Origin: Gammaproteobacteria bacterium
GTDB lineage: Bacteria > Pseudomonadota > Gammaproteobacteria > Steroidobacterales > Rariloculaceae
NCBI GenBank assembly: GCA_022826245.1
Contig: JAJDVG010000055.1
Location: forward strand, 16,882-80,881
Reading direction: 5' to 3'
DNA: 64,000 nt
Numbering within the stretch: the first letter of the stretch is position 1; each line of letters opens with the position of its first letter. The notes beneath the pieces are model-generated. The model saw only the letters and a list, made by a program, of their open reading frames with translations, had not been told where the DNA came from and searched no databases. The position numbers and the translations under genes were made by a program. Positions 10,732 through 56,950 of this stretch are shown one piece after another.

Positions 10732-11003
10732 GCGGGAGGCGCACTGCGGGTCGCTTGAAACGCGCGGTGACTACGTCCGAACAGGGTCGTCGTGGGCGTC
10801 GTCGCGGTGGTGCGGGGAAGCGCACCACGAGCCGCTTGAAACACGCCGTGAATTCATCGTGCAGGCTCAGTGTCAGCGTTGTCGCAGGGATGCGGGGAGG
10901 CGCACTACAGGCCGCTTGAAACACGCCGTAAATCCATCCCTGGAGGCTCCGCGCGCGCATCCCTGCGCGCGAGGGTTTCAAGCGGCCTGTAGTGCACCTC
11001 CCC
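10732..11003. repeat. Palindromic repeat family A, copy 1: two degenerate 80-bp half-units (10732, 10812) followed by a 110-bp nested palindrome (10894-11003)
   Basis: Left arm GGGGAGGCGCACTACAGGCCGCTTGAAAC (10894-10922) and right arm GTTTCAAGCGGCCTGTAGTGCACCTCCCC (10975-11003) are complementary at 28/29 positions; repeat units start at 10732, 10812, 10892. Confidence 0.9.
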
Positions 11004-11051
11004 TTGGATTGTCGCGGACTTGGGGGGGTAGTTATGGCGCGCGTGGCGGGC

Positions 11052-14835: not shown

Positions 14836-15025
14836 GGCGGTATTTTGCCGGATTCGGCAAGGCGGCGCGCGGCACAAAAGCCTCTCCCGGAAACAGCTTC
14901 ATGGCGTACAATTTCTATACGTTTTATGCAGTTTCATTCGATGAGCAACCCCGGAAATTCGCGCGACGATCGATTTGGCGTCCGGTTCACGATCAACCTC
15001 TGTCTTCGGCGGCGCGCATAGGGCC

Positions 15026-16801
15026 GTGACGCGACTCCGAGTTGTCCTGCTGCTCCTGGCGATAGCAGGTGTCGCGGCCTGTGGGGGCGGCGGTTCGTCG
15101 CCTCCGCCGCCGACCCCGGCTCCGCCTCCCGTGCAGCAACCGCCCCCGGACCCGCCCCCGGATCCTCCGCCGCCGGACCCCGATCCCCCGCCGCCCGATC
15201 CGAATCCCGATCCCGATCCCGATCCCGATCCTGATCCGGACCCAGACCCGGATCCAGACCCGGATCCAGACCCGGACCCAGACCCGGACCCAGACCCGGA
15301 CCCCACAAGCACCTGGACTCCGAACGTCTTCCTGCCGGCCGCAACGTTCGCCGCGCAGTGCGAGAACCCGCGCAGCGGCACGAACCCGCAAACAAACCGC
15401 GCCTACCCGGACATGCAGGGCTCGACACTCGCTGAAAACAACTGGCTGCGTTCATGGAGCAACCACCTGTATCTGTGGTACGACGAGATCACCGACCGCG
15501 ATCCGGGCCTCTATCCGACACCTGACTACTTCAATCTCCTCAAGACCGAAGCGCTCACGCCGTCAGGCAACCCCAAGGACCGGTTCCACTTCACGTATCC
15601 CACCGAGGAATGGGTCCGCCTGTCGCAATCGGGCGTATCCGCGGGTTACGGTGTCGAGTGGACGCTCGTCGCGCGCTCGCCGCCGCGGCACATCGTGGTC
15701 GCATTCGCTTCCCCCGATACGCCAGCCACCCGCTCACCGGCCAATCTCGCACGCGGCGCCGTCGTGCTCGAGGTCGATGGCGTGGATGCGGTAAACGCGT
15801 CGGGTTCCGCCGCCGTCGCCACGTTGAATGCGGCCCTCTTCCCGGAAGGCGCCGGTGAAACGCACACGTTCAGGATTCGGGATGCCGGAGCGACAGCGTC
15901 CCGGGAGGTCATCCTGCGCTCCGAGTTTGTCACGCTCGAGCCCGTGCAACACGTCAGTACGATCGACACCCCGACCGGCACGGTCGGCTACATCTTTTTC
16001 AGCGACCATATCGCGACGGCGGAGCCACTGCTCATCGAAGCAATCACTGAACTCGAACAGGCCGGCATCAGCGACCTCGTGCTCGACATGCGCTACAACG
16101 GCGGGGGCTTTCTCTACATCGCCAGCGAACTCGCCTACATGATCGCCGGAGCCGTACCGACAGCCGGGCGAATCTTCGAGGAACTCCAGTTCAACGACAA
16201 GCATCCGGTCACCAACCCGGTCACGGGCCGACCGATCGAGCCTTTGCCGTTCCTGCCCGAGGCGATCGGCGATTCGGCGTACGAGGGCACGGAGCTCCCG
16301 TCCCTGAACCTGCCGCGCGTGTTCGTACTCACCGGCCGCGGTACCTGCTCCGCGAGCGAATCGGTCATCAATGGCCTGCGCGGGGTCGATGTCGAAGTAA
16401 TCCAGATCGGCGGGACCACCTGCGGAAAGCCGTACGGCTTCTACCCTGCCGACAACTGCGGTACGACGTATTTCTCGATCCAGTTCAGGGGCAACAACGA
16501 AAAGGGCTTCGGCGATTACGCGGACGGTTTCTCGCCGGGCAACGTCACGGTGCCCGCCGGCACATCCGTGCCCGGTTGCGTCGTCGGCGACGACTTCACG
16601 AGACCGCTCGGCGATACCGGGGAAGACAGGCTCGCGGCAGCACTCGAATACCGCGCCAACGGGACCTGCCCCGCGCCTCCGGCAAGCTCCCTGTTGAAGA
16701 GCTACCGGGCGGCCGGAGCGCCGGCGCTGTTTCCGGCGATCGACGGCGTGCTCATTCGTTCGCCGCTGCGCGAAAATCGCTGGCTCGATCAATGGCAATA
16801 A
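15026..16801 (+). CDS. S41 family peptidase-like lipoprotein with long Asp-Pro repeat linker
   Basis: GTG start, lipobox VAAC, (DP)n tract, PDZ-like segment, GRGTCSASESV and GGTTCGKPYG S41 catalytic-like motifs. Confidence 0.8.
   Translation: MTRLRVVLLLLAIAGVAACGGGGSSPPPPTPAPPPVQQPPPDPPPDPPPPDPDPPPPDPNPDPDPDPDPDPDPDPDPDPDPDPDPDPDPDPDPTSTWTPNVFLPAATFAAQCENPRSGTNPQTNRAYPDMQGSTLAENNWLRSWSNHLYLWYDEITDRDPGLYPTPDYFNLLKTEALTPSGNPKDRFHFTYPTEEWVRLSQSGVSAGYGVEWTLVARSPPRHIVVAFASPDTPATRSPANLARGAVVLEVDGVDAVNASGSAAVATLNAALFPEGAGETHTFRIRDAGATASREVILRSEFVTLEPVQHVSTIDTPTGTVGYIFFSDHIATAEPLLIEAITELEQAGISDLVLDMRYNGGGFLYIASELAYMIAGAVPTAGRIFEELQFNDKHPVTNPVTGRPIEPLPFLPEAIGDSAYEGTELPSLNLPRVFVLTGRGTCSASESVINGLRGVDVEVIQIGGTTCGKPYGFYPADNCGTTYFSIQFRGNNEKGFGDYADGFSPGNVTVPAGTSVPGCVVGDDFTRPLGDTGEDRLAAALEYRANGTCPAPPASSLLKSYRAAGAPALFPAIDGVLIRSPLRENRWLDQWQ
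15178..15303 (+). repeat. GAYCCN hexamer tract encoding the Asp-Pro linker
   Basis: Repeated gatccc/gatccg/gacccg/gaccca units in frame. Confidence 0.9.
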
Positions 16802-50940: not shown

Positions 50941-51132
50941 GCCGGGAGGCGGACTACCGGTTGCTTGAGACATCGGTACGTGCGTTCAGGCAGGCTCGGC
51001 GTGCGCGGCGTCGCGATGTTGCGGGGAGGCGTACGACGGGCCGCTTGAAACACGCCGTGAATACATCCATGTAGGCTCCGCGCGCGCATCCCTGCGCGCG
51101 AGGGTTTCAAGCGGCCCGTCGTACACCTCCCC
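50941..51132. repeat. Palindromic repeat family A, copy 2: one degenerate 80-bp half-unit (50941) plus 110-bp nested palindrome (51023-51132)
   Basis: GGGGAGGCGTACGACGGGCCGCTTGAAAC (51023-51051) vs GTTTCAAGCGGCCCGTCGTACACCTCCCC (51104-51132): 28/29 complementary; half-unit spacing 80 bp. Confidence 0.9.
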
Positions 51133-51186
51133 TTGGCTCGTCGCGGATTGGGACCGGTGGTTGTGACGCGAGTGGTGGGGTGTGGG

Positions 51187-56577: not shown

Positions 56578-56607
56578 TTGACACCCGCTCTCCCATCTCC
56601 CGACAAT
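56578..56607 (+). promoter_or_regulatory. Sigma70-like promoter upstream of cobalamin riboswitch
   Basis: TTGACA (56578-56583), 18-nt spacer, GACAAT (56602-56607). Confidence 0.6.
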
Positions 56608-56611
56608 ACAC

Positions 56612-56780
56612 ACAGATGGTGTCGCCACGAAGGCGGCCATGAGGGAACTCGGTGTAATTCCGAGGCTGTACCCGCAACTGTAAGCCGGGAGCTTGCGGCC
56701 CACAGGCCACTGGAGACTTCTCCGGGAAGGCGGCCAAAAAGCGATGATCGGCGAGCCAGGAGACCTGCCATCGCGTCGTT
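56612..56780 (+). ncRNA. Cobalamin riboswitch
   Basis: Conserved elements: GGTGTCGCC...GGGAACTCGGTGTAATTCCGAGGCTGTACCCGCAACTGTAAGCCGGGAGC...GCCACTGG...GGGAAGG...GAGCCAGGAGACCTGCC, directly upstream of btuB. Confidence 0.95.
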
Positions 56781-56950
56781 CGTTCGCGGGTCGGGAATAG
56801 TGCCGGCGAACGGGAGCGAGCATCGGGCCGCAACCCGGTGTCCCTTCTCCCGGGTAACGACATGCAACAAGGGCCGCGCCCCGCGGCGCCTGTCGTCGCC
56901 GGGGCCGGAGTTGTCGTTCGGCGCGCCCTCCAGGGCGCGGGAGGGGACCG

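Follow-up and report, generated by a model that had tools for sequence, protein, structure and literature searches.

The nested palindrome that closes the array in the window, by which we mean the whole stretch of 64,000 nucleotides that was analysed, represents one copy of a mobile repeat, small and non-coding, that is interspersed in genomes across the class Gammaproteobacteria. Its minus strand is the strand that is kept folded. The repeat is a new, much wider branch of the kind represented by YPAL, a Yersinia repeat known since 2006, and it comes with a new functional reading. The best explanation, to which we give an even chance of being correct, is that a repeat related to YPAL/RU-2 presents predicted CsrA/RsmA-binding hairpins on its folded minus-strand RNA, is inserted by a route other than RAYT, and forms arrays that decay. 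YPAL is thereby joined to a repeat found in many gammaproteobacterial families, in which one strand stays folded while its sequence drifts, and this leads to a testable function in CsrA/RsmA binding.

Anatomy of the two copies and of the arrays

The features of the repeat in the window are listed in Table 1. The arms of copy 1 are complementary at 28 of 29 positions, as the earlier note had read them, and the hairpins lie where it had put them, with TCCA-TCCC-TGGA at 10933-10944 and CGCGCGCA-TCCC-TGCGCGCG at 10952-10971. Read on the minus strand, the one mismatched arm position forms a G-U pair; the stem of core hairpin 1 carries a 5-nt bulge. The fold was much more stable than expected by chance (z = -12 for the minus and -11 for the plus strand). 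The anatomy of copy 2 is the same, its arms pairing at 28 of 29 positions, and one decayed half-unit accompanies it. The period of 80 bp described earlier for the array of copy 1 is correct when counted from GCGGG (80 and 80 bp); counted from CGCTTGAAAC, which begins at 10752, 10833 and 10913, the spacing is 81 and 80 bp, one G making the difference.

Table 1. Positions of the repeat features in the window
Feature	Position	Strand	Description
Half-unit -2	10732..10811	+	left arm, decayed hairpin 1 and linker, without right arm
Half-unit -1	10812..10891	+	left arm, decayed hairpin 1 and linker TTGTCGCAGGGATG, without right arm
Left arm of full copy 1	10894..10922	+	29 bp; 29/29 pairs on the minus strand, counting one G-U
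Core hairpin 1	10923..10949	-	loop 10935-10942 = CAGGGATG (CANGGANG); based on class-wide conservation and covariation
Core hairpin 2	10950..10974	-	conserved; loop 10958-10965 = CAGGGATG (CANGGANG) on the minus strand
Right arm of copy 1	10975..11003	+	left arm inverted
3' tail of copy 1	11004..11040	+	TTGGATTGTCGCGGAC..., common to one subfamily of copies
Decayed half-unit 5' of copy 2	50943..51021	+	offset about 81 bp
Full copy 2	51023..51132	-	left arm 51023-51051, right arm 51104-51132
3' tail of copy 2	51133..51170	+	TTGGCTCGTCGCGGATTGGG...

The possibility raised earlier that these two loci are the only ones in the genome did not hold. A BLAST search with copy 1 retrieved about 45 full-length copies along with some 20 half-units, and the search of the genome and its relatives with a covariance model, which the earlier note had proposed, found 87 copies here and 50 and 23 in two congeners; the copy number for this genome is a lower bound, since several contigs start or finish in the repeat (C9, C24, C26, C38, C52, C54), indicating that it breaks the assembly. 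Among 46 copies from this genome the inner arm letters vary (e.g., GCACTACAGGCCGC, GCATTGCGCGCCGC, GTATGACCCGGCGC) with matching changes in the right arm in nearly all cases, and the core is nearly constant.

The half-unit periodicity recurred at many loci of this genome, with a spacing that was nearly always 81 bp (80 bp once and 78 bp once), and the half-units were always located on the left-arm side (5') of a full copy. Their interpretation as decayed left halves was right in its main idea, except that they are not uniformly degenerate: the arms often match those of the local full copy, and it is the cores that decay. In this genome the hairpin 1 motif was kept in 44 of 46 full copies versus 9 of 18 half-units. 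A half-unit corresponds to a full unit minus about 48 bp, from the hairpin 2 loop to the linker, and full copies in tandem at a spacing of 129 to 130 bp were detected at three loci. The most economical interpretation is that full units were duplicated in tandem and that the internal copies then lost their right half. Duplication of the full unit of about 129 bp would generate the arrays, and the internal copies would then lose 48 bp, so that 81-bp half-units remain 5' of a single intact palindrome at the end of the array.

The same half-units could be explained by a SINE-like retroelement whose minus-strand RNA is reverse transcribed, the half-units being copies cut short at hairpin 2, which is GC-rich. 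In every case they retain the side that corresponds to the 3' terminus of such an RNA and stop at hairpin 2, and the target duplications of YPAL are variable in length, from 3 to 26 bp (PMC2229807), which is consistent with such an origin. Against this, RVT_1 genes were absent from all six genomes searched (G000, G001, G002, G005, G015 and G310), which comprise five high-copy family members, namely the own genome, two congeners and two further members, and the closed genome G310. The retroelement is therefore disfavoured, and we regard it as highly improbable. CRISPR and integron attC arrays were set aside because the spacers are homologous rather than unique and the units occur without cassettes.

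Arrays of 81-bp half-units were found in this genome and in a congener. In other genera, full copies were arranged in tandem at a spacing of 146 to 180 bp (L066 3120-3737; L098 4734-5125 and 160-386), indicating that arrays are not confined to this genus. Core-only copies that lack the outer arms (model positions about 13 to 68) were also observed (L172 5153-5208, L088 426-481 and L097 632-683), and these adjoin or overlap full copies.

Distribution and relation to YPAL/RU-2

The covariance model used for the genome searches was built from a gapless alignment of 46 sequences. Class-wide, it was matched by 61 of 292 gammaproteobacterial genomes. In a phylum-wide draw of 299 genomes, for which the number of genomes from other classes is not stated, all 25 positives belonged to Gammaproteobacteria. 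The distribution was patchy even inside the family of the host. A 22-nt core pattern occurred in at least 118 stretches of GTDB species genomes. Among the matches listed, nearly all came from named gammaproteobacterial groups, including Microbulbifer, Marinobacter, Xanthomonas, Stenotrophomonas, Methylotuvimicrobium, Pectobacterium, Sodalis and others, together with one MAG labelled Alphaproteobacteria and a few labelled only Proteobacteria. The 60-nt class consensus found no match in E. coli. A phage origin was considered and was not supported, as the core pattern had zero matches in viral contigs.

That the element matches nothing known holds only in part: its core is common to YPAL/RU-2 of Yersinia (Rfam Ysr224), and its arms, tail and distribution differ. 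Against Ysr224, which is YPAL, the window element scored below the threshold (23.4 bits, E = 0.0037, gathering 70), and a YPAL copy itself scored 133.9 bits. In the reverse direction, covariance model R1 found the copy on a Yersinia similis plasmid (63.5 bits, E = 8.5e-12), and the RU-2 sequence printed in PMC2759123 is the reverse complement of that copy. On this conjugative plasmid (NZ_CP007231; L179 2920-3145) the YPAL copy is located between two copies of AAACCGCCATAAAGGCGGTTT, apparently a duplicated terminator.

YPAL/RU-2 (168 bp; Ysr224, RF02770) and the present repeat have in common the core GCCGTAAATACATCCATGTAGGCTC, with two CANGGANG hairpins in a long stem, and both are intergenic, mobile and present in many copies (PMC2759123, PMC2229807). 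The conserved two-hairpin core is thus present in the window element, but the full sequence of about 168 bp with its outer flanks is not: arms, outer sequences and tail are unrelated, and the YPAL flanks are absent here. YPAL has been described only for Yersinia and Erwinia, whereas the present repeat is class-wide. The 81-bp half-unit arrays seen here are absent from the descriptions of YPAL consulted (PMC2759123, PMC2229807), in which CsrA-type loops are likewise unmentioned. No paper containing the core letters was found, and in the open-access literature neither a published account of the class-wide repeat nor a paper connecting YPAL with such a family or with CsrA was found.

Strand-specific pairing and the hairpin loops

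The arms are inverted and 25 to 30 bp long, and those of different genera have no sequence relationship. In the 46-sequence alignment, 23 of the 30 pairs, among them every one of the 14 outer-stem pairs, showed two-sided changes, and 92.9% of the cells were paired, compared with 32 to 44% when the partners were slid. The arm mismatches that are wobble-compatible numbered 147 to 165 on the minus strand versus 38 to 41 on the plus strand (about 4:1). Counted by element, 62 leaned to the minus and 10 to the plus strand (sign test, p = 3e-10), and the predicted fold was more stable on the minus strand in 83 of 95 copies. Arms that were copied and then mutated should show equal wobble on both strands, and the observed bias therefore indicates that pairing of the minus strand is maintained. 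Alternatively, the asymmetry may have arisen from a strong strand-biased mutation process. That the arms are inverted copies of each insertion target is disfavoured, because copies in this genus share them, though they are unrelated between genera; the wobble bias suggests that they drift under the constraint of RNA pairing. Arms that are unrelated between genera yet complementary, combined with a minus-strand G-U bias, appear to be new.

The functional form would be a minus-strand RNA in which a stem of 25 to 30 bp of freely drifting sequence presents the two hairpins. On this strand the sequence of each loop is CANGGANG, the motif that CsrA/RsmA binds with high affinity. In hairpin 2 it was present in 78 of 95 class-wide copies versus 0.75% of shuffles. 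The letters CA-GGA-G were fixed in 82 to 87 of 87 loci, with G, T or A at the first N and T, C, G or A at the second; the per-position counts for hairpin 2 somewhat favour the motif, since the stretch counted was picked as the best match. The hairpin 1 motif was partly contained in the pattern that fetched many of the loci, so that its conservation is partly by construction and counts for less; this does not apply to the hairpin 2 motif.

The spacing between the two motifs was 23 nt in 62 of 78 copies, which lies inside the range of 10 to 46 nt given for binding by CsrA dimers (PMC6028588). CsrA sites have been described as RUACARGGAUGU, the E. coli SELEX consensus, and as (A/U)CANGGANG(U/A) (PMC6692469), and hairpin 1 of the GTAC-type copies, GUACAGGGAUGU, fully matches both. 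The element thus carries CANGGANG in hairpin loops at a dimer-compatible spacing. The presence of both minus-strand loops as CANGGANG, about 23 nt apart, appears to be new.

Similar arrangements of hairpins are known from other RNAs. The TwoAYGGAY RNA (Rfam RF01731) has the same architecture, an outer stem around two hairpins with CAUGGAUG-type loops, and is predicted, on the same kind of grounds, to bind CsrA, but it is assigned to Clostridia (PMC4333381) and no common sequence was seen outside the loops. Its Rfam model had no match in the window, and the minus strand of YPAL matched it weakly (18.9 bits, gathering 43), so that the two-hairpin outer-stem architecture is found here and the Rfam gathering score is not reached. 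The sponge RNAs CsrB/CsrC and RsmX/Y/Z sequester CsrA/RsmA by multiple A(N)GGA hairpins (PMC4333381, PMC6692469). These are dedicated sRNA genes, whereas the present element is scattered as a repeat that offers two sites in each copy and for which no promoter is known.

The hairpins would most probably serve to bind CsrA/RsmA, each transcribed copy acting as a two-site CsrA ligand, either a sponge or an mRNA-protecting module. In a broader version, which we propose tentatively and hold to be somewhat short of an even chance, a class-wide mobile repeat carries the CsrA/RsmA-binding hairpin pair as its payload and titrates or rewires the regulator, YPAL being one branch of it. The repeat may then scatter CsrA-binding sites around genomes. 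If this is true, mobile DNA is a source of new sites and of sponges for a global regulator, and amplification to tens of copies adds CsrA sites to a genome and may titrate or rewire CsrA.

The csrA gene was found in 59 of 62 element-bearing genomes, including the own genome. It was also found in all 18 genomes tested that do not carry the element, and its presence is therefore uninformative. In three element-bearing genomes (G095, G110 and G212) csrA was not found, and in G095 and G212 the loops are conserved despite this. G110 loci such as L245, L248, L257 and L268 contain a repeat of different appearance that has two CANGGANG-type hairpins (e.g., TTACATGGACGTAA and CGCAGGGATGC) and may represent a separate family built on the same plan.

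Insertion sites and mobilization

At the locus of copy 2 an insertion was observed. The same two genes are present in the congeners G001 and G002, where the intergenic stretch is only about 40 to 70 bp and the element is absent, and the approximately 230 extra bp found here consist of the half-unit, the full copy and a tail of about 50 bp. The intergenic sequence of the congeners is too diverged for a target duplication to be read.

Gene 3' ends were favoured, with 32 copies between convergent and 17 between divergent genes, counts that are based on simple ORF calls and from which many copies inside predicted ORFs were discarded. Both copies in the window are located between convergent genes. 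This placement would suit a module that acts at gene 3' ends in the manner of YPAL, terminating transcription in both directions or stabilizing mRNA, with a stem that protects transcripts and loops that are incidental. YPAL itself inserts beside targets with dyad symmetry and, as reported, possibly affects the stability of upstream transcripts (PMC2229807). However, a plain stem needs neither conserved CANGGANG loops nor a wobble bias on one strand, and no T-run follows the arms. We therefore consider a 3' end module improbable.

Contrary to expectation, the folded strand showed no bias for co-transcription with its neighbours, as 58 upstream genes were co-directional and 59 downstream genes were opposed. 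The lack of orientation relative to genes agrees with a reading in which the folded minus strand, as single-stranded DNA or RNA, is the substrate of a mobilizing enzyme, the two GGA hairpins and the stem are what that enzyme recognizes, and the resemblance to CsrA sites is due to convergence. Folding of one strand, as in single-stranded DNA recombination systems, and the conservation of the loops in genomes without a csrA match also agree with it. So does the arrangement of inverted neighbours: where copies of opposite orientation lie within 450 bp of each other, the folded strands always point away from each other (9 of 9 pairs; loci L103, L110, L116, L117, L123, L089, L232, L213 and L077). 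In the pairs examined by sequence, the arms differ between the partners. This reading leaves the exact match to the CsrA consensus, with both N positions varying, unaccounted for, and it has no candidate enzyme; the high-copy relatives contain neither Y1_Tnp nor RVT_1. We regard it as rather unlikely. The distribution of csrA and the strand-orientation results leave CsrA binding plausible, and the hairpins may serve a mobilizer instead.

REP, BIME and REPIN elements are likewise short, high-copy intergenic palindromes, sometimes in inverted pairs. They are marked by a length of 20 to 40 bp, a GTAG/CGTC tag and a RAYT gene, of which the tag and the gene are both missing here: no conserved GTAG or CGTC tag was found (GTAG, GGAG and GTAC all occur), and Y1_Tnp (RAYT) genes were absent from the same six genomes that were searched for RVT_1. 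Membership in REP/REPIN thus fails, as RAYT genes are lacking in the high-copy genomes searched, and movement by a RAYT transposase is refuted for the genomes searched and retains a negligible probability overall. The statement of the earlier note that the array does not match REP/BIME was borne out by this absence in the high-copy relatives tested. Under the preferred explanation, a YPAL/RU-2-related repeat with predicted CsrA/RsmA hairpins, copies would insert near gene 3' ends by a non-RAYT and probably non-reverse-transcriptase route.

Two further features of the window were observed. A cobalamin riboswitch is located at 56600-56786 (Rfam RF00174, 124.6 bits), and the N-terminal part of the protein predicted at 14975-16801 contains a long Asp-Pro repeat.
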